Below, piece by piece: positions 4,469 to 29,519 of a DNA stretch of 64,000 nt. The number at the start of each line of letters is the position of its first letter. The stretch's first letter is position 1. Source of the stretch: Amanita rubescens (taxonomy: Eukaryota > Basidiomycota > Agaricomycetes > Agaricales > Amanitaceae). The notes under the pieces are model-generated. The model was not told the origin of the DNA. It saw only the letters and a program-made list of their open reading frames with translations, and did no database searches. The translations under genes were made by a program, and so were the position numbers. The stretch covers positions 40,345 to 104,344 of the forward strand of contig WION01000191.1 in assembly GCA_015039365.1 (NCBI GenBank). Direction: 5' to 3'.

Positions 4469-4588
4469 CCTTCGGTGGCAGTGTACCCTCCCGATTGGCC
4501 CATCTTACGCCAGTTACCAAATTGGGAGATCCATGTAAGACAGCTGTGGGAACCTCCCATGCGTCCTCTCTTTTATCACTCCATCCTC

Positions 4589-6532: not shown

Positions 6533-6587
6533 GCACAACGTCAGTTTAATTGATCGGATCTCCCAGGTTCAATCCTGCAGGGGAGAG

Positions 6588-6859
6588 TGTAAGGCTCGTA
6601 CGTCAGTAGAAGCCGGACGTTGTATATATCTATGCTCAAGACTCTGGGGAGTTTGTCTAACTCCCAATTTTATCTCTTTCCGTATATAGCATTAGTATAG
6701 TTACGTGTGACTACTTAAGTCACCTTATACCTATTAGATAAGCAGTCAATTCTTGTAACGCGCACATTAGCACTACCGGAATACACCCAGTACAGTGCAC
6801 CGCGCGTTTGAATAACTCGGAGATTATATCTCCACTATTATAAACTTATCCACTTTACA
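6588..6859 (+). repeat. Probable 3' LTR of the Ty3 element
   Basis: A purine tract (GGGGAGAG, 6580-6587) directly precedes TGTAAGG, the expected polypurine tract/LTR junction. A near-inverted end CTTTACA lies at 6853-6859. TATATATC at about 6621 could be promoter sequence. The 5' LTR is outside the window, so the right boundary rests only on the short inverted ends; the true end could lie up to about 40 bp further right. Confidence 0.5.
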
Positions 6860-7229
6860 CTGTTGGAGTATTGTCAGTCTGAGACCCAACGATCATGAAA
6901 CAATTGCGCACTATCATGACACCATTACTACAATATCAATGCCAGTACCATAGTGTTATTACCTCAGTAGTGTTACAAATGTGTCACATCACATCTTTTT
7001 TCAGTGGCACAGCCACTGTTCTCTCTTTTTTATTTTATTTTTATTTTTAATCCTTGTTTATACCCCATTGGGCCACTGGCCTACGGTAGGGTGTACATTT
7101 AACTATGTAACTATTTGGTATTCTGTCATTGTAATTGTCTTCAACTTCTGCTATAAAAAACCCAGAACTAACAAGAGCCCAGGGGGCTGTAAAGTAATAA
7201 GTCAGTAAATACTGGGACCAGAGCACCAA
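6860..7229. other. Gene-free AT-rich stretch
   Basis: Contains a T-rich run around 7024-7050 and no convincing ORF, RNA gene or repeat structure. It ends at the 8-bp TSD of hAT-A1. Confidence 0.5.
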
Positions 7230-7237: not shown

Positions 7238-8086
7238 TAGTGTTTACAGGTCAGGTCACAATAACTGGAAAATAACTGTAACCTGACCTAACCGCTACCA
7301 GTTATAACCTGACCATCGGTCACAGTTATACCGGTCAGTGATCAGTTACAGTTACAGTTATGGCAAATGGCCCAATTGGTATAACTGGTCTATAACTGGT
7401 CATGACCGGTCATGACCGGTTATGATGACCAACTTGAAATGGGTTATTTGTTGTGAACTACACTGTCTATATTATCTTGAATTACCCTATGTCTTGAGCT
7501 CTAAAAGTGATACACCCATGAATTTAAAAAGAAATTTTGAAAAAGATGACTACATGACCACTATACCTCCCAATTCTCTACCTTACAATCTTCAGAGAAA
7601 TAGCAAAATACTCTGCCAATAATGACACTGCAATTGGCAGAGCATTTTCTATTTTTATTTTGCAGATTATCATATACATGCCACCACCAACCATCAGAAA
7701 AAATAGCAAAATACTCTGCCAATGACAACACTGCAATTATTGGAGGATTTTCTATGTCTATTTGCAAATTATCCTATACATACATGCCACTAACCCTCAG
7801 AAAGAATAGCAAAATACTCCACTGGTGATGGGACTGAAATTGGTGGAGCATTTTCAATTTCTATTTGCAGATTTTTAACTGGTCATGACCGGTTATGAAC
7901 TGGTCATAACTGGTCATCTTCTAACCAGTTATAACTGGTTATGCAAGGTTAACCTGACCAGTTGTGACCGGTTACAACTGGTCAGGTTACAGTTACTAGG
8001 TTTAGGGGTCATTCAATAACCGGTTACAGTCACAGTTATTCAAAATTTGGGCAAATAACCTAACCTGACCTGACCTGTAAACACTA
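7238..8086. mobile_element. Non-autonomous hAT-type element A1 with internal tandem repeat
   Basis: Terminal inverted repeats begin TAGTGTTTACAGGTCAGG (left) and end with the exact reverse complement (right). They are flanked by a perfect 8-bp duplication CTAGGAGA (7230-7237 and 8087-8094). An 8-bp TSD with ends fitting YARNG is characteristic of the hAT superfamily. Subterminal regions are full of GACCGGTTATGACC-like motifs on both strands, plausible transposase-binding sites. The centre (7592-7876) holds about three copies of a ~103-bp repeat starting near 7592, 7695 and 7797 (shared core AATAGCAAAATACTC). No transposase is encoded, so it would depend on a protein supplied in trans. Confidence 0.85.
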
Positions 8087-8094: not shown

Positions 8095-8837
8095 GGCAGA
8101 TCAGTAAAGCGAAGACCTATACTACAGCTATGATGGGGGTTTAAGTGGCAGTGGGCTTGACTTGGGCAGTCTCTTTCTGTGTGTTTCTAATTGGCTTCTT
8201 CTCTGTCCATGCATGCATGGTACAGGCCTTGCTGAAGAGGAATGCCTTCTTTTGTCTGAGGACCTCCTGTTGGGCTTTGCCATCATCATCCTCAAATGTC
8301 AGTACCACCATGGACCTGCAGCCTGGTTTGATTTTGGATGGAGGGCAAATCCAATAGGGCTTTATTGGCATGTGGAGTTGGTTTGACCACTTGTTGTTTT
8401 GGATCAGCTGGGCCGCTACACATATCACCTGGTGTGTATGCGGGACCTTTCTCAGGGGCTGGGACCCCATTTATGCATACACATCTCCATTGAACACCTG
8501 TGAAGGCCTTGACAGGGAAACCTGCATCTGCAAAGACCGGGTGGATATAGGGTAGAGCATTGGCAAGTTGAGCTGTTGATGTGTGACTCCTGGGCCACCA
8601 ATTAGGACTATGTTCCCCTTTGCCATCCTATTTACTGCTGACAGGTGGACAGAGGACAGCACTGGGGGAAAAGGTATTTTGCCACCAGTCACGGAAGGGG
8701 CTGTGGTTGGGTTGGCTAGAGCATTGTTCAAAGTGTGACATGCATCATTGTTGTCATAAGTTTCGGTGTCAAGCAGTACCTGGGGTACCAGAACTATATG
8801 AGCCCTCGTGAGGGGTTCTCAGGGGGCCTTGGGTGGG
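8095..8837. other. Gene-free stretch between hAT-A1 and the nested cluster
   Basis: Several short overlapping ORFs on both strands, none with a recognisable domain, codon signal or splice structure. I see no repeat or RNA gene here. Confidence 0.5.
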
Positions 8838-9305
8838 CAGGGTACTAGGGTTTTAAAGTCCAGTTGGGTCCAGTCTTTTTGTTATTTTTTGGGCAACTGC
8901 AACTGCAACCAGTCTTTTTTTTTTTGGAAATTTCATAGGACTGGACCAGGACCACAAAAGACTGGTTGCATGTGGTCTTTTGCGGTTGTGCAACCAGTTG
9001 CAACTGATGTTACCATTATTAAAGACATTTGCAACCAGTTTTTGGACTACACTGACATCACCATTGGATTCAGAGATCCAAAGAACCCCCAGAAACATTG
9101 AATACTCTATCTACAAACCCTTATCAAGTCCAGGCCTGAGACTTGTCCTCTTTGGTGATCTCTTTGATGATTTCTTTGTCAATGTTGGCACAATGCTCAA
9201 AATAGTGCTGCAGAGTCCTGTCCTGTCCTGTCCTTTGGCCCTGGAGGGCAAGACCAAGGACAGGACCAAAGACTGAATGCTCAAAAAATGAGAGGACAGG
9301 ACCGA

Positions 9306-9621
9306 TGTAACAACTCAAAGGAGGCTGTGTTGCACACAACCCCCAAGTGTTTCGGCGTGTGCCGAATGAGTTCGGTGGACGGGGCAGTTGCACCCAACCT
9401 CGGCCGCACTGTCGGACGATTGCACTGAAGTGGTCTAAAGGGAAGATGTATAAAAAACTAAACTACGACACATTTATATAACGTCGACCTCATGTACTAC
9501 ATGCGTCCGACGATCCGATGCATCCAACATCGGGTTTTGGGGTCCGCAGTGTCGGAGGTCGGAGCTGCCATGTGTCAGGTTTGAGCACTGAGTACAACGT
9601 AGCCGGTATCAGCACGTTACA
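9306..9621 (-). repeat. LARD-1 left LTR (316 bp)
   Basis: Pairs with 24218-24533. The two differ at 17 positions, every one a C/T or G/A transition at a CpG in one of the copies. No indels are seen. Confidence 0.9.
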
Positions 9622-10020
9622 CTCGCTCACCAGTTTTGAATGTTGACGTCACCGTCAACCCGCGTCATGTTGGTGGAAGACCGACATGAATGTTGGAGGT
9701 GAGGGGAGTATTGGCGAGGAAGGATGGAATGTTGGAGGTGAGAGAGGATGTCGGTGGAGCAGTGGAGGTCGGTAGTAGTCATAGACAAGAGTCTGCGGAG
9801 TCCGATTATGCGTAGATAGTCACGAATAAAGGAGGAGTCGTCAGTGGCGATAGGGCTCGGTGGTCGTCGGAGGTCTCAGTTGTGGTCGGCATGATGTGGA
9901 TGCTGTCGGGATGTGGAGGAGGGGCGTGTCGAGGTGCGGATAGCAGATGGCATGTCGGCGGTGGTCATTATAGGCGGTAGAAAATGTCGGCGAGGAGGGG
10001 CGCAACTCCCCCGATCGCGG

Positions 10021-10683
10021 TCATCCCAGTAATCCGATCAATAGCACTGACCCCGTAAGGCTGCTATGATGTTTCCTGAGATGCTGTTGGTGCAATACGG
10101 TGTTAAAGAAAGGCGGAGACGAAGTCGGTAAAATCAGCGGTGCTAGTCGAGTCATAAAGGGCCTAATGTGAGTCCTGCGTTGTGCGTACTGATATCCGTT
10201 ATCTGAGTCTGTCCCAACATCCCCCACACTCCAATTTCGCTGCAGGTTGACTTGGCGAGGGTTTCTGTGCGGAGATATTGCTGATGGTGATGAGACATGT
10301 GTTGAGGGTCCGATTGAGCATGAAACGTAGCCATTTGAACGAATACGGCTGCGCCGTATCCCGATCCTGGGTAGAAAAGAAAAAATGCTGAAAAAAAAAA
10401 GATCTTGACTTGCATGCGTCGGAGGAATGGCGGTAGCGTGTGCTGAGGTGTTGGCAGTGTCCAAACGCGGTGGTGGATGGCTAGGCAAGTGCGAGAGGTG
10501 AAGGGAGGGTGCAGCGTGGTCTACATGTGTCGGAGAAACAGGTGAAGTGGCAAGGAGTGCGGTCCGAATAACGAAGGGTTGGGTTGGCATGGAATAACTG
10601 GCGGCTGTGCTCCAGGAGTGTCTGATACATGAGGCCTGAACATGAGGTATGCTACAAGTTGGCAGCTGAGGAATAGGGTGCAC
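10021..10683 (-). other. Open frame in LARD-1 interior, similar to one in LARD-2; probably not a gene
   Basis: This 220-codon frame is rich in Ser, Pro, His and Thr. Only one stretch, FLPRIGIRRSRIRS, is shared with the LARD-2 minus frame at 38363-39415. That stretch overlaps a DNA palindrome (ATACGGC..GCCGTAT), so nucleic-acid structure may be what is conserved rather than a protein. No gag, protease or polymerase motif is present. Confidence 0.3.
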
Positions 10684-11581
10684 GATAGCAGTCGATGGGC
10701 TCCGATAAGTCCCGATAAGGCTGCAATAGGCTGTGGACGTCGTGTGGTGGGCTCAGCAGGCTTGGATGGGTCGTAGGCCAGCAATTTGGGGTAGTGTTTA
10801 CAGGTCAGGTCACTGTGACCGGAAAATAACCGTGACTGGACCGAACTGCTACTGGTTATGACTGGACCATCGGTCACAGTTTTACCAGTTAGCTCTGGTT
10901 TCAGTCATGGTCATGGCCAATGGCCTAATTCATGTAACCGATGTGCAACTGGTCATGACCAGTTGCAACCGAGAAGTCAGGTCATAGACTCAATTACTAG
11001 TTTACTTCTACTAATAAATAATGCTGCACTGCGTGGTGAACCAAAATGCTGGTTGTCAAATGGGTAATGTGCCTAGGAAGAGTGTTGGAAACACTACAAA
11101 TCAAGCCCTAAGCAAAGGAAAACCGTTAAGAAATGGATAAGATATGTGTTAATGAAACTCACCCATCAACCCATACAGAAAACATTGTACCACCAGCAAA
11201 CAAGGATACCGATTGTCAAACGGTTAACGTGCCTAGGAAGAGTGTTAGAAGCGCTACAAATTGAGTCCTAAGTGAAGGAAATCCGTTAAGGAATGGATAA
11301 GATATGGGTTAATGAAACTCACCTATCAACCCATACAGAAAACATTGTACCACCAGCGAACAAGGATGCCGATTGTCAAACGGTTAATGCACCTAGGAAG
11401 AGTGTTAGAAACGCTACAAATTGAGTCCTAAGTGAAGGAAATCCGTTAAGGAACGGATGAGATATGGGTTAATGAAACTCACTTATCAACCCATGCAGAA
11501 AGTGATGTACCGCCAGTGAACAAGGATTCCGATTGTCAAACGGTTAATGCACCTAGGAAGAGTGTTAGAAACGCTACAAAT

Positions 11582-12750
11582 TGTTGAAACTAGGGGTAAC
11601 AAGTCCCTAGCGAGCAGCGCAGTCTAGTACATGGAATGTACTACTTACCGAGTGTGGTGTGGAGTTGTTAAGAGCTTACTGGAGCTGGGGCTCAACAGTA
11701 GACAGTACTAGAGAGGATAATAGGATAAGGATTGACGCTACTAGAGTACAGTTTATATACTACTAAACTACAAATAAGTACAAAGAGTCTTATCAGTATG
11801 AGTCAAAGGTATTTGACTCATAAGGCGTCATTCCACAGCAATGCACAGCTATTGTACAGCAATGCATAGCTTTGCGCAGCACTTGACTCATCAATTATAG
11901 TATTGACTGACTCATCACATTATCAATCTTCAATGTGATAGGTTGATAACCATAACGTATATATGTCTTCTATTCTCATGTCAACATATATTCACATCAT
12001 CAATAGTTCCACTATTATGATTGGATGATCTTATGAGAATATCTCTAGGATATTCTCATGTCAGAATATGTTCTCATCATCAATCATCCACTATTATGAT
12101 TGGTAGATGAGTATGAGAATATGTCGAATATATTCTCATGTCAATATATTATCTCACACTCAATCATCCACTATTATGATTGGTTGAGAGACGAGTAAGT
12201 AACTGAGCGTTATTACATTAGTTAGTGTAAACTAATGATATCACTTATATTTACTATATACTGAATGTATATCGTTGTTACAACACGGTACGGACTCCCG
12301 CATTATGCTTACATGATACGTCGGACATGTTTATTTTCCTTTATGCCTACCTTACTTGTCGTCTCCCTTATACTCGATTCATACGGACAAGCTCGTTTCC
12401 TTACTTATACCATCCCTTGTTCCACATATGATGCCGTCCTTATACATACTTTTGTACTCACCATTATTCACTAATTAGTACGTCTCATTGTACTTGCTAG
12501 TATAAGTACCGCATGTATTCTAGTGTCGAACCCTAAGTTCGACTTAGCTGTTTATTGTTGTCTGGCAATATAACCCTACTCTTAACTCATCTACCACAAT
12601 CGTCCTCAGATCCTAAGTCAACGTCTTGACTTAGTATTGAACTTATAATCTTAACGTTTGACTTAAGACTTGTAATCGTAACTAGAGTTGCCGTTGCAAC
12701 TCAGGTTGAGATTAATGAGTTCGTAACAATCATATATTATAAGTTCAACA
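11582..12750 (-). repeat. Copia 3' LTR (left copy), interrupted by a solo LTR
   Basis: It matches the 711-bp right LTR after removal of 12276-12733 (the insert plus its second TSD copy): 1169 minus 458 is exactly 711. Confidence 0.92.
12276..12728. repeat. Solo LTR (453 bp) inserted in the copia LTR
   Basis: Begins TGTTACAAC and ends GTTCGTAACA (short inverted ends). It is flanked by ATCGT (12271-12275) and ATCAT (12729-12733), a 5-bp TSD with one CpG-type G-to-A change. The undisturbed site is visible in the other copia LTR near 22075 (TATATCGTATATTAT). A solo LTR normally remains after recombination between the two LTRs of a full element. Confidence 0.82.
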
Positions 12751-12796
12751 CTCCCCTTCGCTAAGTTATTTATTAGCTTTCAAAAGGGTAGTCAAT

Positions 12797-14611
12797 TTAA
12801 TTTTCTCTTTCATAGTATTTAAAGATTTCTTCAAGATATCCTCGCACTTCAAGATCTTGAATTCTTTCAAATATTTTACTATGTTGTCCTGGGGACTTAT
12901 TAAGGGTTTTACTTTTGATATAATTAGCAAAAGTTTGTGATGCCTTAATGTGATTAGATAATGATATTTGACTATCATCTAGGATTAATCCCATCTTCAT
13001 TCGGAATATTACAAATTTTGAATATGGTAGATTTTTGGTCATTATATCCGCAACTTGTTCATTGGTAGGAATGTATGTGAGTTTAACTTTCTCACTTTCG
13101 ACACATTCTCTAATGTAGTGAAATCTTATGTCAATATGTTTTGAACGATGTTCTTGTGCAGGGTTACTGGCTAAGAACATTGCTCCTTGATTGTCACAAC
13201 ATAAGAAAATAGTTTTAATTGGAAATTCAAGTTCACTCATAAGTGATTCAATCCAAACTATTTGTCTTGATGTATCAGACATTGACATGTATTCTGCTTC
13301 AGTTGAAGACAGTGCCACTACTTTTTGTTTTCGTGAAACCCATGATATAGCTCCTCCTGCGAGTTTTACTATATATCCAGTGACAGATTTTCTTGTAATT
13401 TTGTCAGCACCCCAGTCAGCATCAGTAAAGGCTATAAAGCCTTCTTTATTTAAACCATTATAAACTATTTTAGTTTGTACTGTGGTATTAACATAGCATA
13501 CTATGTATAATGCTTTCTGTATGTGTTCTTCATTTGGGTTTGCACAAAACTGAGACATTAATATTACTTGATAAGTAATATCAGGTCTTGTTCCTAATGC
13601 AAGATATAACAACGATCCTATTATTTGTTGAAAATAAGATCGCATTTCTGCTGTACATTCCTTTGTAGCAGCAGTTGGAATATATCCTGTTGGTAAAGGT
13701 GTACGAGTTGGTTTACAATTTTCTAAACCAAATCTTGATACAACTTTTTTAGCGTATGCATGTTGATCAATAATAAGAGTACCCATGTTCTTATTGTAAT
13801 TGATTTGCATACCTAAATATTCTTTAACTTTTCCAAGATCGTGACATTCCCATTTCTTCATAAAAGCATTTTTGACTTTATGAATTTCTGGTGTATTATC
13901 ACCCATGAAAAGCATGTCATCGACATATACTATACACACTATTATAGTGTCGTCTTCTCTTCTGACGTATATGCCAGAATCAGATAAACAGTGTATAAAT
14001 CCTAAATCCTCTAAGGATTTATTGGCTTGTTTATTCCAGGCATATGAGGCTTGTTTAAGTCCATATATTGCCTTTTTAAGTTGGTAAACTTTTTGTTCTT
14101 GGCCTTTGACTACATATCCTTCTGGTTGTTGCATATAGATATCCGCTTCGAGATCTCCGTACAAAAAGGCTGTTTTAACATCTAGTGCTTCAATATCCCA
14201 TTTTTCTAGCACAGATATTGCTAACAAAAGGCGAATCGTTTCATATCTTGCCACTGGCGAAAACGTTTCATCATAGTCAAGTCCAGGTCTTTGAGAAAAT
14301 CCTTTGGTGACAAGTCGAGCCTTCTTTCGACCGTCAGATTTAATATCGTATACCCATCTACATTTAATAGGTGTACGATTATGAGGTAATTCTGCAAGCT
14401 CCCAGATTTTTCTATCATTCAATGATTTCATTTCATCATTCATTGCTGTCTCCCATTGTTCATAAGATTTGGGATCAGTAATTTTGACTTTTTGAATATC
14501 TTTGTATTGATATTCTCTGATATTATCTCTTGAAATATCAATGGCAGGAATTGCTTGTGCGAGTAAGTAATTCAGAAAACCATTACCTTGCTCTTTAATG
14601 AGATTTGACAT
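12797..14611 (-). CDS. pol: Copia Pol: reverse transcriptase and RNase H
   Basis: This 604-codon frame begins just before the canonical copia RT entry (WETAMNDEMKSL, KCRWVYDIK). It continues with VKTAFLYGDLEADIYMQQPEG, the catalytic box IVYVDDMLFMGD, and RNase H motifs FTDADWGADKITRKS, SSTEAEYMSM and the C-terminal EHRSKHIDIRFHYIRE. It overlaps the upstream gag-integrase frame by 40 nt and lies in the -1 frame relative to it. Expression would therefore need a -1 frameshift unless the shift is a one-base loss. No obvious slippery heptamer is seen. No internal stop, so RT-RH looks functional. The annotated start is the ORF start, not a proven initiation codon. Confidence 0.93.
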   Translation of the reverse strand: MSNLIKEQGNGFLNYLLAQAIPAIDISRDNIREYQYKDIQKVKITDPKSYEQWETAMNDEMKSLNDRKIWELAELPHNRTPIKCRWVYDIKSDGRKKARLVTKGFSQRPGLDYDETFSPVARYETIRLLLAISVLEKWDIEALDVKTAFLYGDLEADIYMQQPEGYVVKGQEQKVYQLKKAIYGLKQASYAWNKQANKSLEDLGFIHCLSDSGIYVRREDDTIIVCIVYVDDMLFMGDNTPEIHKVKNAFMKKWECHDLGKVKEYLGMQINYNKNMGTLIIDQHAYAKKVVSRFGLENCKPTRTPLPTGYIPTAATKECTAEMRSYFQQIIGSLLYLALGTRPDITYQVILMSQFCANPNEEHIQKALYIVCYVNTTVQTKIVYNGLNKEGFIAFTDADWGADKITRKSVTGYIVKLAGGAISWVSRKQKVVALSSTEAEYMSMSDTSRQIVWIESLMSELEFPIKTIFLCCDNQGAMFLASNPAQEHRSKHIDIRFHYIRECVESEKVKLTYIPTNEQVADIMTKNLPYSKFVIFRMKMGLILDDSQISLSNHIKASQTFANYIKSKTLNKSPGQHSKIFERIQDLEVRGYLEEIFKYYEREN

Positions 14612-17600
14612 TTCATTAATTTGAGCATTGTGTAATGTTGAATAAAGTAATTTAACTTTATCAATGTGTTGTCGTATTCAATTGTAGATCTGAGAGAATA
14701 TCTGATTGTAACATCAAGTCTTGGATCAGATTTATCTTTTTCTTTAAGATCTTGAATCAATTCACGAACAACATCTTGTTCTTCTGTAATTTCTTTTTCA
14801 ATTTCCAATGGTGTTTTATTACCATAAGCATTGTCTTTCTGTATAACCGGTTTTTGAAATCTTTCAGATCTTCGAGTAGGTTCTACCGGTTTTTTAGCAG
14901 TTCCTTTGCCTTTTCCTTTAGTAGGTTTATCTTTAAGACTTTGTACAGGTAGATCTAATTCAATGCCTGTAGGTTGATCTAATTCAGCACCTTTGTCTTT
15001 TGAAGATATATCTTTCTTTTCAAAGAAAGATTCTAATTTATCATCCCATTTAGTGTCATCATCATCATTGTCTGATGAATCAGAACTAGAATGATTTTCA
15101 AAGTTGAAATCAAAGAAATCATCATCTGAATGCTGCTGTTCAGATGAAATATCTCCTTTATCATCTGGTTTACCATCAGAGATATTTTTATCTGAGTTTT
15201 CAGAATTATCCTGCTCAATAGGCCTGATAGGATCCAAGTTTTTTGTATAATTTTCATCTTGAGGTTTGGCTCTTGGAAATTTGGTTTCATCAAATTCAGC
15301 TTGGGTGGATACTCGAAGTTGATTTGTATTTGTGATGAAGCGGTATGCTTTTGCATTCGGTTCGTATCCAATAAAGGTCATTATTTCAGACCTTGGTGTT
15401 AATTTATTTTCGCACGATTCATGTGGGATAAATACCCAAGCTTTAGATCCGAATATCTTAAAGTAAGAAACATCAGGTTTCTTTCCAGTAAGATTTTCAA
15501 CAGGGGTCTTCCATTTGGTTTGTCTAAGTGGAGTACGATTATAAACATGTACGGCAGTTTCAATCGCAAAGTTCCACCAAGATTGAGGGCATGAAGCATG
15601 TAATCTTAATGCTTCACTTTTTTCCCAAAGTGTTCTATTCATGCGTTCAACCTTTCCATTTTGTTGATGTATATATGGAGTAGATTTTTCATGAATGATT
15701 CCTACATCAGTTAAGTAATCTTGTATATTTGTGGACATAAATTCGCCCCCTCGATCGGAACGAACAATTTTCAAGTTATATCCATATTGGTTGTATATTT
15801 GTTTGTGCCAGCCTTCAAATACTACAGCGACGTTAGACTTTTTCTGTAATGGTTTTACCCATACATGTGATGTACAATCATCAAATATTACAAGTAAATA
15901 TTTTTGTTTATGATAAGATTGTATTGGAAAAGTCATCAAGTCACAGTGTATACGTTCAAAGGGTTGGGTAGCACATTTTTCTGAAAGAGGAAAGCTCTGT
16001 GAAACAGCTTTTCCTTTTAGACAACCGTTACAAGGTTCTAAGTCTTTAGGAATTGTTAAGGGAGGGAAACCCTCTAAGTTTTTAGAGCCTAATTTTAATA
16101 TTTGTTGGCTAGGATGACCCATCCGTTGATGCCAAATTTCATATCCAACAACATTAATAGTGGTCATCATTAATTTATAATTTGAAGGTTTAATAATTTG
16201 ACCTTCTGTCCACATTAATGTTTCGTTACCATCTCCTGGAAATCCTTCCAGTGATGCGTTTTCAGAGCCTTCTCTGTAGAAAGAAATCCTATCATTATCT
16301 TGTTTTGCAATAAAACCTTGTTTACACAATGTTCCATTGCTTATTAGTCGTAGTGTGGCACTTGGCATATGGAGGACCGGATAAAGTTTCAATCTTGAAA
16401 CCAAACCATTTTTAAGAGTGTGATCCAAAATCACAGTCCCTATACCTAATATATCTGCTTGATTATCAGCTGTAAATACTGAAGTAGGAACTTCGTATTT
16501 TTTATAGCTAACAAAATCTTCTAAGTGTGCGGTGAAATGATGTGATGCACCTGAGTCACACATCCATATTGTAAGTCCTTTATTATTTTTATAACATTCA
16601 GGACATCTGCAAGAAGGTGATTTATCACAAAGTAGACTATATGGATCCTGAAGATGTCCAATGTTTATTACATTAGCATATCTTTCATTTAATTCACTTA
16701 ATGTTTGATCATAGATTTCATCTATATAATTCTGATCATAAAGATGAGCTATTCTTTGATGATCATTTAAGTTTTCACGCATATTGGCATCAAAATAAAA
16801 TAAATTTCGAAGATCAGTAGATCTTCTTGGTGTAGGGTATACAATCGGAACATTAGATGGTATTACCGGTACAGTGTCAATAGTACGATCAGTTGGATAA
16901 TCGTATAAATTGAAAAAATCTTCATAAGGCATAATAGGCCTTGTTGGGATTTGTGATGATGCCATAGATTCTGGAGCCGTATGGTAAACAGAATCTTGAT
17001 CAGATTGATAGAAGTAATTTAAATCTGATGAACTTACAGATTCTGGTCGGAGGAATACAGTGTCTTGGTCAATTACCATCCCTCTAATCATATTTTGTAA
17101 GTGTTCTAAAGTGCGTGCATTAGTATTCATTCTTCGAGCTTCCAAATTAGCTCGTCGAACTTGATCCACATAATATTGTCTGGTATGTACATACCACCAA
17201 CTTAATTGTTCATCATCAAAGGAACCAGGCATTGGTCCTTCAGGCTCCTCATCGGTATAAAGTCCTTCATACCCTGAAGAATTGGCCTCAGATTGATGTG
17301 ATTCATTATCTGTTTGATATCCTTCATTATCGGTTTGATGATGGGATATACTAGGGGAAGCAAAGATAGGACTAGCAAGATCGTCCACACTTTGAGCATC
17401 CTTAGTATCTGCAAATATTGCAGAATCAAAGATATCAGAGTAGTCTGTTGTTTCAGTTTGTACTTTTTGTACATCTCTGGATACAGAATCTCCCGAATCT
17501 TCGGATATCTCATCAATTCTCCCCATGAAGTCGTCCGTGGGAACCGCACGAGTACCTTTGTACTTGTAAATCTTGGGGACAAATTCTTCATCAAAATCTG

Positions 17601-18714
17601 TCATTACCTGATCTCCAATTCTGGCAATCAGAGGTAAAGATGCTGATGTCGAAGATGCCATAGCATGCCCAGAACCAAGTGTTGATTGAGCTGCTGTGCG
17701 AGCAGCAAGTTTATTCGCATGATTCTTTGCTTTAGCTGCCTTATTGCGTTCCCAATTTGGTCCTTTAGACTGATTAGGGATTTGACCAGCCCATTGGGGT
17801 CTAAAAGGAGTCTGAGATTGGCCAGGTGTATGTTTTGGTCCATTAGATGGTCCACCTGTCGAAGTATGTTGTGTTGGGTTTCTTCGATTTCCCATTGGTT
17901 TTCTTCCACCTCTGCCTTGAAAGGACTTCCCATGATAGGGAGTCCAAGGGGTACGAGGTTGTCCTTGTTGCAATTGTTGGCGTGCCATATTTGCAACTAC
18001 TTGAGAGTTAGAATGTTTATTCCCTCTCATGACAACAGAAGTATTGGCATTGTTCCTGTTACCTTTCCTTCGGGACCATTCCTCAGATATGAGATTAAGG
18101 AATTCATCTACAGTGTCATCATCTGTGGAGTGTGCCAACAGATTTGCAACAAAGCTATCCCATGAAGGAGGTAAGGCATGTAGGATCGTCATAATTTGCA
18201 TTTTGATGGTTAAGGTTACACCTTGGTTTGATACTCTATTAATCAAGTCCATAAGATGTGGAACTTGAGTGTTTGGATTGGAATTCTCTTTGAGTTTCCA
18301 ATCAACAATTTGTCTATAGAGTCCAAACGTAGCAGCCAGACCTTGTTTACCAAATTTATCCTTTAGAGATTTCCAAAGGACTTCGGCTTTATCATTTTTA
18401 TCGTCAACAAGGTGTACAAGATTAGGTGCTAGTTTTAAGGTAATGTAACCCTTGGCTTTCATATTGTCCTCTTTGAATTCGACGTATTCTTTGCAAATTT
18501 CTTTAAGAGATTTTAACTGATCTGGCTTTATATCAGATGTCTTGATCGCCTCTTTTTCAGAAGGTTCAAGATCTCTGGGCCAGTCAAGTTTAGGATCAAT
18601 ATGTGCACCAAGACCTTGACTGTTTAAGTACGCAGTCATAAGTCTTTCGAATGCAAGCCAATTTGATCCGGTAAGAACAGGAACAATGGAGTTTATCGAA
18701 TTGGAAGAAGACAT
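14572..18714 (-). CDS. gag: Copia Gag, protease and integrase polyprotein
   Basis: The 1380-codon frame starts at ATG 18714 (MSSSNSINSIVPVLTGSNW). An N-terminal copia-type Gag of the UBN2 kind occupies about residues 10-210. It is followed by a basic G/Q/N/R-rich tail instead of a CCHC zinc knuckle, which I could not find. A long acidic linker leads to the protease active site IWMCDSGASHHFTA (about residue 720). Then comes the GAG-pre-integrase zinc module (WHQRMGHPS..CNGCLKGK) and the integrase D,D-35-E core: IHCDLMTF, VRSDRGGEF, QQNGKVERMNRT. The frame ends shortly after an acidic linker, before RT. Translation of RT is separated by a -1 frame change near 14611-14680. The missing knuckle is unusual but known in some copia lineages. 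Confidence 0.93.
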   Translation of the reverse strand: MSSSNSINSIVPVLTGSNWLAFERLMTAYLNSQGLGAHIDPKLDWPRDLEPSEKEAIKTSDIKPDQLKSLKEICKEYVEFKEDNMKAKGYITLKLAPNLVHLVDDKNDKAEVLWKSLKDKFGKQGLAATFGLYRQIVDWKLKENSNPNTQVPHLMDLINRVSNQGVTLTIKMQIMTILHALPPSWDSFVANLLAHSTDDDTVDEFLNLISEEWSRRKGNRNNANTSVVMRGNKHSNSQVVANMARQQLQQGQPRTPWTPYHGKSFQGRGGRKPMGNRRNPTQHTSTGGPSNGPKHTPGQSQTPFRPQWAGQIPNQSKGPNWERNKAAKAKNHANKLAARTAAQSTLGSGHAMASSTSASLPLIARIGDQVMTDFDEEFVPKIYKYKGTRAVPTDDFMGRIDEISEDSGDSVSRDVQKVQTETTDYSDIFDSAIFADTKDAQSVDDLASPIFASPSISHHQTDNEGYQTDNESHQSEANSSGYEGLYTDEEPEGPMPGSFDDEQLSWWYVHTRQYYVDQVRRANLEARRMNTNARTLEHLQNMIRGMVIDQDTVFLRPESVSSSDLNYFYQSDQDSVYHTAPESMASSQIPTRPIMPYEDFFNLYDYPTDRTIDTVPVIPSNVPIVYPTPRRSTDLRNLFYFDANMRENLNDHQRIAHLYDQNYIDEIYDQTLSELNERYANVINIGHLQDPYSLLCDKSPSCRCPECYKNNKGLTIWMCDSGASHHFTAHLEDFVSYKKYEVPTSVFTADNQADILGIGTVILDHTLKNGLVSRLKLYPVLHMPSATLRLISNGTLCKQGFIAKQDNDRISFYREGSENASLEGFPGDGNETLMWTEGQIIKPSNYKLMMTTINVVGYEIWHQRMGHPSQQILKLGSKNLEGFPPLTIPKDLEPCNGCLKGKAVSQSFPLSEKCATQPFERIHCDLMTFPIQSYHKQKYLLVIFDDCTSHVWVKPLQKKSNVAVVFEGWHKQIYNQYGYNLKIVRSDRGGEFMSTNIQDYLTDVGIIHEKSTPYIHQQNGKVERMNRTLWEKSEALRLHASCPQSWWNFAIETAVHVYNRTPLRQTKWKTPVENLTGKKPDVSYFKIFGSKAWVFIPHESCENKLTPRSEIMTFIGYEPNAKAYRFITNTNQLRVSTQAEFDETKFPRAKPQDENYTKNLDPIRPIEQDNSENSDKNISDGKPDDKGDISSEQQHSDDDFFDFNFENHSSSDSSDNDDDDTKWDDKLESFFEKKDISSKDKGAELDQPTGIELDLPVQSLKDKPTKGKGKGTAKKPVEPTRRSERFQKPVIQKDNAYGNKTPLEIEKEITEEQDVVRELIQDLKEKDKSDPRLDVTIRYSLRSTIEYDNTLIKLNYFIQHYTMLKLMKCQISLKSKVMVF

Positions 18715-18908
18715 TTTCTTACTTTGGTTAAGTTTGTTTAAAATCTAAGAAGATTTTTCGTAAGAAAAGGTTCAAATAATAATAAGGCATAAGAATATAT
18801 GTGATGATGTAATTTCCGTCCTGATTTCTTAAGCTTAATGTCATTCATGTCAGAAATGACAAGAATATAGTATTTTTTACTATTCTAGTGTTAATACTAG
18901 AAAGTAAA

Positions 18909-20164
18909 CTAGGGAATATCTTTTTTACACATCCTTTCAGGTATGTAATATCGAATTTCCGTCACAGGGTTAGATGCGAATCTAGCCCTCCTATTGTCTC
19001 TATCATCGACAGGTTTGTCGAAAATAGATTCTTTAGGTAATTTTATGTGAGGAAAGTCTTTATACCGTCCGGGAAGCCTTCCAGTTTCCTGCCATATTCC
19101 CATATCATTACTATATTCGTCAACAACCCTTTTCACTTCAGTTCCTTCTTGATTTGAAGGAAACACTCCAGCCGCTCTGCTTTCGGCTCGAGTTTTAGAT
19201 ACAATATATCCCCAACTTGCAATGTTGGGGGCGCATCTACTCCAGGTAGGTGTTGTTGACTTTTGCCATCCTTTTTGTTCTGTATTACGTTTTAGTTGGG
19301 TCTTATATACATTAAAAGGTGTATTTACCTTTCCTTTTTTGTATATTTGAGTGATCTCCTCCGGAAGAGGAATTCTGCCCCTTTCGTCAGATGCGATGCC
19401 AAGGAAATGTTGGCGGTACGCATCCGAATCCAAAGCATTAGGGATATTCGTCTTACTTTTCCATTGACGATTACCCTTATGCCAGTCGTTTTTGGTGACT
19501 GGCCTGAATTGGACATGGGCATTGTTTGGTGGTCCATAGGACCACTCTTCCGGTTTAGCGTTGTGGATCCAAGGCAATCCACGATCTTTGTTATATCGCC
19601 AACCTTTGTTGACGATAACAGGTCGTCCTTGTGGACGAGAGACTGGCCCAACAGCCTTCGTGGCCTTGGCGTATGAGACTAGATTATCTTTATTAGATAA
19701 AGATGCATACCTAGTATTTTTAGAAGACTGACCTGTTGGGCTCCGCATTGATTTGGGAGCCGTCGGGACTCCTTTATAGTCGAAGGCGACTTTTTGTACA
19801 CAGCGGTGTACATGATGTATCGCATCGGGATGCGAACAGTGGCAGCCCTTTGCTGCATGAGGCATATATGGGCGCGAGCCCATGGGAACAGGATACTTTT
19901 TATAGTTCCTATTAAGCCTCACAGCTTGAGGCGCAGAAGTCGGAACAGGAATATGTAATGAAGGTACCATTTCTGGTACCTGTGCCTTTGCAGGTGGTGG
20001 CGAGTTCTTTGGTAAGGCCCTAACGGGGCCTGGAGGTGCCGGGCGCCAGAGTTCGGCAAAGCGTTGCCAAAGGTGTTCTGGCGGGGGCTCCCGTGTGAAA
20101 AAGTCGGTGTGCCAGGGGCAACACCAGTGCGGGACAACAACGAAAAGGAATTTTCGAACGACAT
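18909..20164 (-). CDS. Extra ORF between 5' LTR and gag of the copia element, unknown protein
   Basis: A 353-codon frame starts at ATG 19970 (MVPSLHIPVPTSAP) and stays open upstream without an ATG to near 20190. ATG 20164 (MSFENSFSLLSRTGVAP) lies in another frame. A -1 change at the T-run near 20111 would join them into ~417 aa (..GTPTF + FTREPPPEHLWQRF..). The protein is basic, Trp/Pro/Asn-rich, with a Cys/His cluster (GCHCSHPDAIHHVHRC, near 19850) that could bind metal. No known domain is recognised. It is in the same orientation as gag, 194 nt upstream of the gag ATG, and lies inside the LTRs, so it belongs to the element. Such pre-gag genes are unusual in copia. Function unknown. Confidence 0.55.
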
Positions 20165-20189
20165 TTTTATATAAAATGAAAAAATGAAT

Positions 20190-21375
20190 TTAAAAATTGC
20201 TGAAATCAGGAGGTTTAATCATCACATAGTTCTTTGGATAAGATCAAAAGAAAGGAATGGGCGTTCAGAGCCTTCAGCCCTTACTAATCCCAGAAAACAG
20301 ATAATTTGTATGCAAATTGGATGTTTTGGCACAAGTTTCACACATCATTGTTTCTTCTTGTCATGCATGTTGAATTTGGTACTAATCGTTATGAAAGGTG
20401 TTATATTAACCAAGATCTATGTCACATTGGTATCCACTTCGATGTTTTTAGCATCTAATAACGCAGTATTATATTTGCGTGGGATATGATCCAATGTAGG
20501 TAAGAATAGCCAACCCAAGCGTCTGACAATAGATTAAAGACTCGGGGATCGGCCCTTGTCCCTTTTTAAACGATTAAATCATAATCGTTTAATCTCTGGA
20601 ATAACCATGACGATAACGACTGTATTCCCAAATGCATGAGATAAGTCCATCACTTAGATGGTCTATGGGGTCTCAATCCCCCACTAGACGTGTATGTACA
20701 AGTATTAAGAATTAATCTAGACACCGCTGGGTTACAGCTGAGTGTATTCCTAATCTAGAGAAGTCCCTAAGGGCACATTCTCGATAGGCAGAGTGTACGG
20801 TCCACAATGTGACCTCATCTCACCCCTTATACTAGAATCTATTATTACTTGTACATATATTAGGTTTTTTAAGGATCGAAAATCCTGATGATGGTATAGC
20901 GTGGTTCAATACGTCCAATCACATCACACTGCCCAAGCGGTAATACAGTGTGGGACGTCACCCTTTTATACGGTAGGTAATAACCGGTGAAGTTCACACT
21001 TCACAAGTGAGCCAATTTCTATTGATGCAGTAATGGTCCACTGTGAGATTTTTAAGGCGATCTAGGCCGGTTTTTAACGTCATCCAAGACTGTCCCTTGT
21101 ACAGGGATACTCGTAATTTAGACCGCTGAGTAATTAACGGGGTCCCCTTAGCCCTGGGTCCGGGCATATACAATCCAGGTAAGCGGATGACTCTGAGTCT
21201 ATCCCTCACTTCCCAGAAGGGTTAGCCAAGTGCGGTGACTAATCTAACAAGAAAATGAAAACCACACTGGGTGCCTCGCCCAGTTACCTTTGTTTTACCT
21301 TTTCTCTCCGTCAATGACTTGAGAGTGTGCGTCGCTTGGCTTCACAACCAATAGCGCCAAAGGCGTCTGGTTTCG
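20190..21375 (-). other. Copia 5' leader, non-coding
   Basis: About 1.2 kb between the primer-binding site and the extra ORF, without a convincing frame on either strand. It is long for a retrotransposon leader and may hold packaging or translation signals. No recognisable RNA gene was found. Confidence 0.5.
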
Positions 21376-21387
21376 GGGCCCATAACC
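21376..21387 (-). promoter_or_regulatory. Copia primer-binding site (half initiator tRNA-Met type)
   Basis: The minus strand reads GGTTATGGGCCC immediately inside the 5' LTR. This is complementary to the anticodon stem-loop of initiator tRNA-Met (GGGCCCAUAACC, anticodon CAU), not to a tRNA 3' CCA end. Drosophila copia is known to prime with such a half tRNA and has a very similar site. Confidence 0.8.
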
Positions 21388-22098
21388 TGTTGAAACTAGG
21401 GGTAACAAGTCCCTAGCGAGCAGCGCAGTCTAGTACATGGAATGTACTACTTACCGAGTGTGGTGTGGAGTTGTTAAGAGCTTACTGGAGCTGGGGCTCA
21501 ACAGTAGACAGTACTAGAGAGGATAATAGGATAAGGATTGACGCTACTAGAGTACAGTTTATATACTACTAAACTACAAATAAGTACAAAGAGTCTTATC
21601 AGTATGAGTCAAAGGTATTTGACTCATAAGGCGTCATTCCACAGCAATGCACAGCTATTGTACAGCAATGCATAGCTTTGCGCAGCACTTGACTCATCAA
21701 TTATAGTATTGACTGACTCATCACATTATCAATCTTCAATGTGATAGGTTGATAACCATAACGTATATATGTCTTCTATTCTCATGTCAACATATATTCA
21801 CATCATCAATAGTTCCACTATTATGATTGGATGATCTTATGAGAATATCTCTAGGATATTCTCATGTCAGAATATGTTCTCATCATCAATCATCCACTAT
21901 TATGATTGGTAGATGAGTATGAGAATATGTCGAATATATTCTCATGTCAATATATTATCTCACACTCAATCATCCACTATTATGATTGGTTGAGAGACGA
22001 GTAAGTAACTGAGCGTTATTACATTAGTTAGTGTAAACTAATGATATCACTTATTTTTACTATATACTGAATGTATATCGTATATTATAAGTTCAACA
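21388..22098 (-). repeat. Copia 5' LTR (711 bp)
   Basis: Intact copy beginning TGTTGAAACT and ending GTTCAACA, next to TSD CAAAT at 22099-22103. It contains several ATTCTCATGTCA-type internal repeats between about 21779 and 21950, which may be regulatory. Confidence 0.93.
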
Positions 22099-22985
22099 CA
22101 AATTGAGTCCTAAGTAAAGGAAATCCGTTAAGTAATGGATGAGATATGGGTTAATGAAACTCACCTATCAGCCCATGCAGAAAATGATGTACCGCCAGTG
22201 AGCAAGAACACCGATTGTCAAACGGTTAATGCACCTAGGAAGAGTGTTAGAAACGCTACAAATTGAGTCCTAAGTGAAGGAAATCCGTTAAGTAATGGAT
22301 GAGATATGGGTTAATGAAACTCACCTATCAACCCATGCAGAAAATGATGTACTGCTGGCGAACAAGGATTCCGATTGTCAAACTGTTAATGCACCTAGGA
22401 AGAGTGTTAGAAACGCTACAAATTGAGTCCTAAGTGAAGGAAATCCGTTAAGTAATGGATGAGATATGGGTTAATGAAACTCACCTGTTAACTTCCTGAA
22501 GCAGTCACTCCTGCAGAAAACATAATGCTGGTTCAGGATGATGGTGATTGCTTCTCTGTGGTGCCCTATGGCCATAAATCACATGCTGGACTCGGAGGTG
22601 ACCAGAGAAGAGAGGGAGCGATGTGAAAGACTAGAGCATCATGGTGATGGTGTCACACTCCTGTGACTGATTGTTCTACCAGTCATAACCGGTCATAACT
22701 GGTTATGTGAGGCTGACCGGACCAGTAATAACCGGTTACAACTGGTCCGGTCAGGTTACTAGATTTGGGGGGTCATTCAGTGACCGGTTACGGTCACGGT
22801 TTTTCCAAATTTGGGGAAAAAACTGGACCTGACCTGACCTGTAAACACTAATTTGGGGCTGCTGAGACAGATAGCGGCGCTGTGCAAGTGTCGAAGAGCT
22901 GGGATACAAGCTGGGGTCCGATGGAGTCCGATATGTGCGTGCAGGTGTGTGCTACAAGGCGGTGCGTGCGGATTGGGTGCGATTA

Positions 22986-24032
22986 GGGATTGGCGTGGGT
23001 TGGCCAAACCCTTGAGGGTCTTGGGTGTGGGTGTACAGTGGGTATGGGTGGGGGTACAGACTCCATGGACCCTCATTCAAACCCATACCCTCAACGTGGG
23101 TTTGGGTATCATCAGGCATACCCACTCCTGTACCCACTCCTATGTCAGGATAAGGTGGGATGTGGGTAGCTCTGTTGGGACAGAGGCCAGGCCCAGGTCA
23201 CAAATGCAGCCTGTGTGGGTGTCTGATAGTTGCAGTGGGGCAGGGGGAGCCTTGGAAGCAGAACCTGTGAAGGGCCACTGGGCCACATGCATCAGTGGCT
23301 CACTCCATGGGTCATGATGATGGCAGAGGGTGGTGATTACAGAGGCTGGACCTGGGTGTGGCCTGTACACCTGAGGTCTTAGGGTGGCAGCCTGAGTAGT
23401 GAGCTGCTGGGTGGGGTTTCACTGTTTGGATTGCTCCAGAACAGGTGTGGCTAGAGAGTTGAATTGGGGGTGGCAGTACCTCAGGTGGAGGGTGGGGGAT
23501 CAGGAGTGTGTTCTCCTTCTGGTGGTCCATGGGTGCAATGCTGGTGGGCCTGTGGGGTCACTCAGTCTCTGTCAGCCAGCAAAGGAAAGGGACAGAGGGG
23601 TCAGAAGGGAATGGAGGGGAAGGAGACTCCTGGTCCTGTTTGCTTCAAATTGTCTCACATGGCTTAAAGGAGGTGGCAGTGATGAGCACCATTGGAGGCT
23701 GGACTGGGCCTACTAGAGTAGGGGGATGTTGATGGGATATGATTTTGAATGGAAAGGCCAAAAGGGACTCAGGTGGGACTCACCTTAGTTTCAATTACTA
23801 GTTTTTTCTTTTCTTTTTCATTTTAATTAACTCATATTACACATATCATTACCTTCATCAAGGGGTATAACCCATAAGGGTGTGGGTGTGGGTATGGAAG
23901 TGGGTGTGGGTATGGGTCAGCTTGCCATGTACCCTGATCCAAACCCATACCCAGAGTGAGGGTATGGGTATGTCACAGGGTGTGGGTGTGGGTATGCATC
24001 TGGATACCCAGGGGTTCACCCAAGCCAATCCC
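22986..24032. mobile_element. TA-flanked inverted-repeat element inside LARD-1
   Basis: GGGATTGGCGTGGGT at 22986 and its near reverse complement ending 24032 form short inverted ends, each next to a TA dinucleotide (22984-22985, 24033-24034). The region is absent from the homologous position of LARD-2. Subterminal repeats of GGGTGTGGGTATGG occur at both ends in both orientations. A TA target fits Tc1/mariner-like elements, but no transposase is present and the TSD is only two bases, so the class is uncertain. Confidence 0.45.
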
Positions 24033-24217
24033 TATGTGCATGTTGGCGAGCTGGGGTGCAGATGCAGCATGTTTGGCAGTAACTAGCAGATGCATGAGAG
24101 CGGGGATGAGTTGATGGGGCCATCCAGAAAGAATGAGCGCCTCCGGGGCTGTTTGTGAATGAAAAACGAGGGTTTCTTGAGTGCGGCCAAAGGCTGGACC
24201 GAGCAGTGGGCTCCAGT

Positions 24218-24533
24218 TGTAACAACTCAAAGGAGGCTGTGTTGCGCACAACCCCCGAGTGTTTTGGTGTGTGCCGAATGAGTTCGGTGGATGGGGCAGT
24301 CGCACCCAACCTCGGCCGCACTGTCGGACGATTGCACTGAAGTGGTCTAAAGGGAAGATGTATAAAAAACTAAACTACGACACATTTATATAATGTCGAC
24401 CTCATGTACTACATGCGTCCAACGATCCGATGCATCCAACGTTGGGTTTCGGGGTCCACAGTGTCAGAGGTCGGAGCTGCCATGTGTCGGGTTTGAGCAC
24501 TGAGTACAACGTAGCTGGTATCGGCATGTTACA
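24218..24533 (-). repeat. LARD-1 right LTR (316 bp)
   Basis: Partner of 9306-9621. It is the 5' LTR if the minus orientation is correct. Confidence 0.9.
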
Positions 24534-24649
24534 CCGAGACTGCAGCAGGACAGGACTGCAGTCCTGCATTGGTCTCGGACTGAATGTGGTCTCGGACCAG
24601 TCCTGAGCAGTCTTGACAAGAGAGGACTTGGCTGGTGCATGATATGATG

Positions 24650-25530
24650 CATGTGTGAGAGAGCTGGGGTGCACGCCAAGAGAGCTATGGGGTGCATGCA
24701 AGAGAGCTGGGGTGTGTGTGTGCTAGAGAGGGAGAGCTATCTGGGTGTGTGTGCAAGAGAGCTGGGTGTGCATACAAGAGAGAGCTGGGGTGCACAAGAG
24801 AGAGTGAGATGGTGTGTGAGAGAGAGAGAGAGAGCTATGGTGTGTGCACAAGAGAGCTGGGGTGTGCGTGCGAGTGAGAGAGCTGGGTGTGTGTGTGAGA
24901 GAGAGCTGGGGTGCACAAGAGAGAGTGAGATGGTGTGCAAGAGAGAGAGAGAGAGCTATGGTGCATTGGTGCCTGTGCAAGAGAGCTGGGGTGCGCGTGC
25001 GAGAAAGCCGGTGTGCAAGAGAGCCAGGGTGTGTGAGATGGCTGGCGAGAGAGCTGGATGAGCATGTGAGAGAGAGCTGGATGCGCATGCGAGAGAGAGC
25101 TGGGGGTGCAGGCAGTGCGTGTGCGAGAAAGCTGGGGTGTGTGAGAGAGCCAGGGTGTGTGAGATGGCTGGCTAGATGGCTGGTGAGAGAGCTGGATAAG
25201 CATGTGAGAGAGAGCAGGATGCCCATGCGAGAGAGAGCTAGGCGTGCGGGCAAGAGAGAGCTGGGGTGCATGAGAGAGAGAGCTATGGTGTGTGTGCAAG
25301 AGAGCTGCCAGTGGGGTGTGCAAGAAAGAGAGCTATGGTGCATGTGCAGAGCTGGAGTGCACGTGCGAGAAAGCCAGGGTGAGTGAGAGAGTTGGGGTGT
25401 GAGAGAGCACTGGGGGGCTTGAGAGAGTGAGCTGGGGTGCATCCAAGAGTGAGTCGAGCCCATGAAAGATGGCTGGCGAGAGAGCCTGGTGCACCAAGAG
25501 CTGAGAGGATTCACGAGGGAGAGAGCAGAG
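24650..25530. repeat. GA-rich minisatellite inside hAT-B
   Basis: Irregular tandem units built on GAGAGAGCTGGGGTGCA, mixed with (TG)n and longer shared blocks; for example the GTGTGAGATGGCTGG block occurs near 25030 and 25155. It makes long spurious ORFs on both strands (Ser/Leu/His/Thr-rich on minus) that are not genes. Confidence 0.85.
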
Positions 25531-26208
25531 AGCCATGATAAGATCGGTTGGGACCGGTCCTGACTGGTCTTGGCCAGTCCTCAGGATCTTGAGAAGATGA
25601 AAGACCGGGACCGGGACCAAGACAAGACCAAAAAAGACCAAGCTGCAGTCCAGTCTTTTATCGGTCCTACTCTGGTCTTTGACCAGTCCTGGACCGGTCT
25701 GAGACCGGACTCTGCAGCACTAGCTCAAAATCATTCTGGCATATTTTCAGCCAGTTTGTGTACTATGCTGATATCACCATTGGATTCAGTGACCCAAAAA
25801 ACCCTAGAAACAATTGAATACTCCATCTACAAGCCCAAGCTTGACCATGACTGGGCTCAATCTCTTTGATAGAAAACTGATGATGTCACTGGCATACAAT
25901 GACTGAAATATTGTTGGAAATGTGCCATAAATTATGGGCATGTGCATACAGACATTGGTCTTTGCAAATAGCCAGTTGCAAGGTCTTTGGCCGGTCTTTT
26001 GTTTTTCCCAAAATTGAAAGACTGCAACCAGTTGCTCCCACAAAACTAGGCAACTGCAACTGATGGTCCGGTTGCAACTGGTCTGGTCCTGGTCTGGTCC
26101 TGGTCTTTTTCCAGTCCTATCAACTGGACTTCGAATCCCTACAGGGTACTGTCTCTGGTGCAGCAGCTGCAGCCGCAGCATATGTTCTGGGTGTCTTCTG
26201 AATGTAAG

Positions 26209-27447: not shown

Positions 27448-27529
27448 CAATAGTGGCTGCAGATTTTTATGATAAATCTGTGGCAAAATGCGCCGCCAAT
27501 CGTAACGGGCTGCCACTAGCTCATGAGAA

Positions 27530-28220
27530 GGCGATTTCATAGGCGATTTCATAGGTGATTTCATGTTTTTTCATAGGTGATTTCATTGGTTTGCCAGGGC
27601 GATTTCATTGGTTTGCCAGGGCGATTTCATAGGCGATCTCATCCTTTTGCCAGGGCGATTTCATAGGCGATCTCATTGTTTTGCCAGGGTGATTTCATAG
27701 GCGATCTCATTGGTTTGCCAGGGCGATTTCATAGGCGATCTCATTGGTTTGCCAGGGCGATTTCATAGGCGATCTCATTGTTTTGCCAGGGCGATTTCAT
27801 AGGCGATTTCATAGGCGATTTCATAGGCGATTTCATAGGTTTGCCTAGGCGATTTCATAGGTGATTTCATGTTTTTTCATAGGTGATTTCATTGGTTTGC
27901 CAGGGCGATTTCATAGGCGATCTCATCCTTTTGCCAGGGCGATTTCATAGGCGATCTCATTGTTTTGCCAGGGTGATTTCATAGGCGATCTCATTGGTTT
28001 GCCAGGGCGATTTCATAGGCGATCTCATTGGTTTGCCAGGGCGATTTCATAGGCGATCTCATTGTTTTGCCAGGGCGATTTCATAGGCGATTTCATAGGC
28101 GATCTCATAGGCGATTTCATAGGCGATTTCATAGGCGATCTCATCCTTTTGCCAGGGCGATTTCATAGGCGATTTCATCCTTTTGCCAGGGTGATTTCAT
28201 AGCCGATTTCATTGGTTTGC
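27530..28220. repeat. Left outer subterminal array of the inverted-repeat element
   Basis: Short units mixing CGATTTCATAGG, CGATCTCATTGG and TTTGCCAGGG. A ~305-bp block is itself duplicated: AGGTGATTTCATGTTTTTTC occurs near 27552 and 27858, giving a higher-order repeat. Confidence 0.85.
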
Positions 28221-29417: not shown

Positions 29418-29459
29418 TAAAACTCTAACCCTAAACTCTAACCCTAAACCCTAAACCCT
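29418..29459. repeat. Short telomere-like run
   Basis: ACTCTAACCCTAAACTC.. followed by two CCCTAAA units, inside the core of the inverted-repeat element. It is too short and degenerate to be a telomere. Confidence 0.5.
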
Positions 29460-29519
29460 GAAAATGAATTTAGCTTGGAATGTCAAAATCACTACAAATA
29501 TCAGCTATTACTCAAATCA

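Follow-up and report, generated by a model that had tools for sequence, protein, structure and literature searches.

Insertion of transposable elements (TEs) into one another has been described for the long terminal repeat (LTR) retrotransposons of plants, where families differ in how often they nest (Jedlicka et al. 2019, PMC6911290). In basidiomycetes, the MarorhAT families of Marasmius oreades include short non-autonomous hAT elements that share terminal inverted repeats (TIRs) with a transposase-bearing relative, in a genome whose CpG methylation is higher in repeats (PMC9674265), and TE copies in Microbotryum carry C-to-T changes at CpG (PMC4352252). Chromoviruses carry a Chromo domain at the integrase C-terminus (PMC3605345, PMC2864245), and the Drosophila LTR element ZAM has the fixed target CGCGCg (PMC2527525). 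Here we analyse a nest of six elements within 64,000 nucleotides of Amanita rubescens DNA (the window; positions 40345-104344 of contig WION01000191.1, here C103, in assembly GCA_015039365.1, which comprises 75.7 Mb in 786 contigs, numbered below with the prefix C).

The structure is of a known kind, and insertion within insertion is common for such elements; at this locus it is unusually well documented. Set against the available parts of the sources above, it resembles the plant nests in that elements lie within elements and their order can be read from the nesting, and differs from them in that hAT-type elements alternate with LTR elements, the host is a fungus and a second genomic copy serves as a check. 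The hAT-type layers resemble the MarorhAT families as described, and near-identical copies suggest that they may be active here. A Chromo domain at the integrase C-terminus likens two elements to the chromoviruses, namely the innermost LTR's family and a further insert that lies in hAT-B in the second copy, although the window itself keeps only a solo LTR. The CpG C-to-T changes of basidiomycete TE decay appear here when the two near-identical copies of this locus are compared, and again within a single element when its LTRs are compared.

Six nested insertions, with empty sites for five

A first-pass annotation of the window had described a six-deep nest running inward from hAT-C through hAT-B, an LTR element that it named LARD-1 (LARD, large retrotransposon derivative), hAT-A2 and a copia element to a solo LTR. 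The nest is real: the target-site duplications (TSDs) given for all six boundaries are found at their junctions (Table 1), and the relative order read from them is right. The search for empty sites that the annotation proposed yields insert-free relatives, or an insert-free allele, for five of the layers: hAT-C, hAT-B, the LARD-like element, hAT-A2 and the innermost LTR. It found none for copia, where the register of a tandem array and a second contig stand in.

For hAT-C, a relative on C289 (79%, aligned) crosses the join uninterrupted with a single ACAGGGTAT, and a match on C585, also at 79% and taken from the match listing, covers the same span across the join; the DNA that hosts hAT-C is therefore itself a dispersed, decayed repeat. 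A hAT-C relative on C650 (L052) reads GTGCTCAAAATCATT and has no hAT-B, while a hAT-B relative on C78 (L066) reads GGACCGAGACTGC and has no LARD-like element. The 40 joined bases of the hAT-A2 site match a second LARD-like element in the window (38955-38994) at 35 positions, C278 at 29 and C2 at 27, and none of 500 shuffles reached these values in any of the three cases. The matches to C278 and C2 fade away from the site, and the evidence for this layer therefore comes chiefly from the second LARD-like element within the window itself. The site of the innermost LTR is read uninterrupted as ATCGTATATT, with a clean ATCGT, in the second copy of the locus on C164; the single mismatch between the two TSD copies in the window, which the annotation had recorded, is a CpG transition.

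Removal of the inner insert returns the left copia LTR to 694 + 17 = 711 bp, the length of the right LTR, and removal of the copia element restores the register of the 160-bp array, whose units begin at 11096 and 11256 and then at 22098 and 22258, both as the annotation had stated. This array is private to the locus: close matches lie on C103 and C164 only, the other matches listed being just 67-74% identical, and C164 has one unit more. One insertion had been missed. The seventh element, hAT-D, lies within the LARD-like element as a sibling of hAT-A2, so that the chain stays six deep.

Table 1. Coordinates of the nested elements in the window and of the inserts found only in the second copy (C164).
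Feature	Span	Strand	Own sequence, LTRs or size	TSD (left / right)	Remarks
hAT-C, layer 1	8846..26141		8846-9202 + 25733-26141, ~0.77 kb	CAGGGTAC, 8838-8845 / 26142-26149, exact junctions	TIR TAGGGnTTnnAAGTCCAGTTG
hAT-B, layer 2	9203..25724		9203-9305 + 24539-25724, ~1.29 kb	GCTCAAAA, 9195-9202 / 25725-25732, exact junctions	TIR TAGTGCTGCAGAGTCC
LARD-like, putatively non-autonomous LTR element, layer 3	9306..24534	-	LTRs 9306-9622 + 24218-24534 (317 bp)	CCGA, 9302-9305 / 24535-24538, exact junctions	
hAT-A2, layer 4	10792..22850		10792-11581 + 22104-22850, ~1.5 kb	ATTTGGGG, 10784-10791 / 22851-22858, exact junctions	TIR TAGTGTTTACAGGTCAGGTC; bears 160-bp array
160-bp tandem array in hAT-A2, left part	11053..11581				Right part 22099 to ~22486
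Ty1/copia retrotransposon, layer 5	11582..22098	-	LTRs 11582-12750 (interrupted) + 21388-22098 (711 bp)	CAAAT, 11577-11581 / 22099-22103, exact junctions	
Solo LTR, chromodomain Ty3/gypsy family, layer 6	12276..12728	+		ATCGT / ATCAT, 12271-12275 / 12729-12733, one mismatch	Placed by LTR identity and empty site in C164
hAT-D, seventh insertion	22984..24034		1.05 kb		TIR TAGGGATTGGC; sibling of hAT-A2 within LARD-like element
C164 insert 1			8.1 kb		Putative LTR element; repeats 408/408
C164 insert 2			0.32 kb		Inverted repeat; opposite window 8145-8148
C164 insert 3			8.2 kb	ACAGG	LTRs 327/328
C164 insert 4			8.5 kb	GCTAT	Inside hAT-B; LTRs identical except 21-bp indel
C164 insert 5			2.4 kb		
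C164 insert 6			1.4 kb		

A second copy of the locus and CpG decay

Contig C164 (reverse strand) is about 99% identical to window 88-36534 and collinear with it. It has the same outer five layers without the innermost LTR, its copia element is a solo LTR flanked by CAAAT on both sides, and it holds six additional inserts. The one inside hAT-B codes for a Ty3/gypsy polyprotein that includes a Chromo domain (E 1.1e-14) and belongs to a chromovirus family other than that of the innermost LTR. C164 is probably the other haplotype. The number of contigs bearing an Rpb1-type gene varies from one to three, which suggests that haplotypes have been retained in the assembly over just a part of the genome. 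Window 59603-62424 was tried as a ploidy marker and set aside, as it is itself repeated (4 near-identical copies) and says nothing on ploidy.

Excluding the interior and left LTR of copia, together with the tandem arrays found at about 27.4-30.3 kb, C103 and C164 differ over 26,350 aligned bases by 173 substitutions, comprising 158 CpG transitions, 8 other transitions and 7 transversions. The same decay is seen within the LARD-like element, where all 17 differences between the two 317-bp LTRs fall at CpG and 13 of 30 CpG positions are intact in both. The copia LTRs show one difference in 689 compared bases, a part that has 10 CpGs, and the gap between the two pairs (5% against 0.15%) is explained by CpG content and decay as well as by age. 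We therefore rejected LTR divergence as a means of dating the layers. The annotation's claim that nearly every layer is dated by its TSD holds as a relative order and fails as a statement of ages, since CpG decay accounts for nearly all of the divergence, and the only safe clock is the nesting order. Indeed, the comparison is a warning that LTR-divergence dating fails where such decay dominates. It also points to rapid rebuilding: six inserts, the reduction of one copia element to a solo LTR and the arrival of one LTR all fall within 15 non-CpG substitutions per 26,350 aligned bases.

Several further features of the two copies were recorded. Window 8145-8148 reads TGG where C164 has its 0.32-kb inverted-repeat insert, perhaps an excision footprint. 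A large inverted pair of 34-bp tandem arrays surrounds a spacer at window 27500-30212, inside which C164 carries its 2.4-kb insert, with C/G-run ends. Window 1-6861, together with L019 7386-10000, makes up a Ty3/gypsy element with ~274-bp repeats, and in C164 the 8.1-kb insert lies within it. A plasmid search and a viral-contig search returned no matches.

Family membership of the layers

An 8-bp TSD and short TIRs starting TAG or CAG, the marks of the hAT superfamily, are present in hAT-A2, hAT-B and hAT-C; a hAT-B copy on C78 has the TSD GGGGTGAA, while no TSD was seen at the hAT-C relative on C650, which counts against the assignment. The own sequence of hAT-B consists of AG-rich imperfect tandem repeats. 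The hAT dimerisation domain (PF05699) lies within 5 kb of the ends in 2 of 12 hAT-B and 4 of 36 hAT-C hits, incompletely matched and two of them over 39 bases, so that the link is weak for both.

The case is clearer for hAT-D, whose right end has PF05699 on its inner side and same strand at 290-351 bp in 6 of the 39 hits outside the locus (a seventh has it on the outer side at 4.8 kb), where chance would give 0.21 within 1.5 kb. Its ends are thus common to elements bearing this domain, which places it in the superfamily. No clear TSD was found at 22976-22983 / 24035-24042; among six other hAT-D copies examined, five show 8-bp TSDs, and in one of the five the two repeats differ by a single mismatch. 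Near-identical copies lie on C84, C495, C38 and C546, at up to nearly 100% identity. The right flank differs between the window and C164 (TGTGCATG against TCAGTGCA), and longer hAT-D relatives suggest that adjoining LARD sequence is missing.

Ends of the hAT-A type lie within 5 kb of PF05699 in 7 of 36 hits (0.66 expected), whereas the LTR controls give 0 of 39 for the chromovirus, 3 of 37 for copia and 4 of 36 for the LARD-like family. The domain is on the inner side and same strand, at 3.2-3.5 kb, in three hits only (C495, C551, C26). In the other four it lies outside the element, and these four are therefore hAT-A copies beside other hAT genes. Shared ends of this kind give modest grounds for placing hAT-A in the superfamily. 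The hAT-A ends on C374, C486, C339 and C599 stand 158-406 bp beyond hAT transposase fragments. For three of them the distance is 405-406 bp, and these equally spaced copies are perhaps one older insertion beside another hAT gene. A further copy in the window, hAT-A1 (7238-8086), has the TSD CTAGGAGA.

The copia element encodes Retrotran_gag_2, gag_pre-integrs, rve and RVT_2 domains, and its integrase preceding RVT_2, 5-bp TSD and LTR pair identify it as Ty1/copia. TSDs of 5 bp were read at eight sites including the window, the seven other copies being exact, and the named sources among the best 120 of 4477 protein matches are Moniliophthora, Trametes, Ganoderma, Phanerochaete and Rhodofomes, which puts the element with those of other basidiomycetes. 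The innermost LTR has at least 39 other copies at 94-96% identity among the matches listed, many paired ~7.7 kb apart. In the one member examined, on C146, a Chromo domain stands at the integrase C-terminus (E 1.5e-17), so that this member is a chromovirus and the window's solo LTR joins it by LTR identity. The family's TSD is 5 bp long at 14 sites read on both sides (window included), 12 of them exact; the window and C114 have one mismatch each.

A CpG-centred target and the probable origin of the nest

The LARD-like element measures ~2.1 kb once its inserts are removed. It has the LTR pair and TSD expected of a non-autonomous LTR retrotransposon, and its longest open reading frame (ORF; 243 aa) has no Pfam match. 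The minus strand is assigned from a primer-site-like stretch starting TGG, which was found by eye 2 bases inside the LTR; ARAGORN found no tRNA within the window with which to compare it. LARDs have non-coding interiors of more than about 4 kb. With an interior of ~1.5 kb the element is too small for the name it was first given, and the LTR pairs of its relatives are about 1.9-2.1 kb apart, with one pair (C515) at 4.4 kb. Its TSD, annotated as CCGA/ACCGA, is the 4-bp CCGA on both sides; of the 17 family sites for which both flanks were read, 13 have identical 4-mers. LTR-element TSDs are put at 5 bp in fungi and 4 bp in animals in the available part of one source, which does not use the term CpG (PMC10886601).

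Outer flanks were taken at all 40 listed matches to the LARD LTR (40 of 69 candidates scored), and contigs with the same flanks were merged to give 20 distinct sites. The flanks read N-CG-N in 33 of 37 cases, the remaining four having a TG or CA centre. Only one of the 20 sites, C124, lacks CG on both sides; the other 19 have NCGN on one side or on both. By comparison, CG makes up 4.7% of dinucleotides in the window, and the control TSDs give it no fixed place (0, 0, 2 and 2 by position at 14 chromovirus sites; 0, 0, 0 and 1 at 8 copia sites). This CpG-centred target is the most novel point of the locus and, as read from flanking sequence, a possible insertion bias; the chromovirus family, with its chromodomain, shows another possible one. 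Among the listed titles and abstract openings of the open literature, ZAM was the sole near case of a CpG- or NCGN-centred LTR-element target. The LARD-like family resembles ZAM in having CG in its target, but it is apparently non-autonomous and the shared core is just CG with varied outer bases. The second LARD-like element of the window (37410-39641) has identical repeats (37410-37709 / 39313-39612), and its outer flanks, GCGC and CCGG, are unlike, both fitting NCGN.

We are highly confident that the nest arose by successive ordinary transpositions in a TE-rich and presumably CpG-methylated part of this basidiomycete genome. On this account hAT-C came first, hAT-B second and the LARD-like element third, the last receiving hAT-A2 and, separately, hAT-D. 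The 160-bp array then grew within hAT-A2 and was entered by copia, and finally, in the window copy only, a chromovirus inserted into the copia left LTR and left its solo LTR behind. In the homologous copy copia is a solo LTR and further elements arrived, including the second chromovirus inside hAT-B. Both solo LTRs would be products of LTR-LTR recombination, and the pile-up would reflect a region that tolerates insertions and to which chromoviruses may also be attracted. A number of points weigh against this reading. C278 and C2 agree with the hAT-A2 site at only 40 of 80 ungapped bases, and 200 shuffles against C278 reach as many as 42; copia has no true empty site and hAT-D no clear TSD at this locus; C164 may instead derive from segmental duplication, since an Rpb1-type gene occurs on three contigs; and C103 and C164 could share an assembly error, though their point mutations and inserts differ.

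Chromodomains can direct integration to heterochromatin. We put at slightly less than even the chance that some layers were guided to heterochromatic or methylated repeats by their own means of integration, the chromovirus through its chromodomain integrase and the LARD-like family through its CpG-centred target. Chromo domains are present in both chromovirus families, the LARD-like sites are CpG-centred as above, and at least 10 of the innermost family's 18 insertions are flanked within 1.5 kb by TE-like or repeated sequence, recognised by a TE protein domain or by a match to a small comparison set of repeats (C103, C124, C146, C737, C128, C354, C748, C783, C786 and C650). Flank matches are short at C756/C646, C19 and C224. 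However, the flanks of five insertions (C3, C154, C114, C662 and C776) match no repeat in this set, which does not make them unique DNA, and three ORFs scanned among these (C3, C662 and C776) have no Pfam match. Moreover, methylation is presumed here, and the hAT layers and copia show no such device. Tolerance of insertions in a repeat compartment accounts for the chromovirus flanks as well as a preference does, and attraction by a chromodomain could act for one layer.

The first-pass annotation had suggested that the families prefer to land in one another, such that the nest would reflect active family-to-family targeting. We found this not to be established and consider it improbable. In a proximity test of seven families outside this locus, using the hits listed and a uniform-placement null, seven between-family pairs lie within 2 kb (1.36 expected), or five if three loci of the same spacing count as one event (Poisson P about 0.013). 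On C374 another hAT-A copy contains a copia solo LTR (TSD AACCT), with the same spacing by coordinates on C93 and C32, at a position that is empty in hAT-A1 of the window near 7960; a LARD-like copy on C57 has flanks that match LARD interior (L050); and the four hAT-A copies close beyond hAT transposase fragments, of which three share one spacing, point the same way. The excess is nevertheless small and drawn from listed hits, any TE-rich compartment predicts the same clustering, the copia and chromovirus TSDs have no common motif, the host element differs at each layer and the locus was chosen because it is nested. Finally, a wrong joining of repeats during assembly is extremely unlikely: every layer is a repeat, yet the TSDs match to the base and the outer junctions agree in two contigs that differ by 173 substitutions and several private inserts.

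The reading of ordinary successive transpositions thus leaves a well documented nest, verified against comparison sites and a second copy, whose inner layers are still changing. It also brings to light a family of retroelements whose CpG-centred target is directly testable. We offer as a speculation, itself rather doubtful, that the integrase used by the LARD-like family and a putative autonomous partner cuts around CpG (N-CG-N), possibly reads methyl-CpG and homes to methylated repeats, where the family would then lose its own CpGs by deamination. If true, the family would be using its host's silencing mark as a target site.

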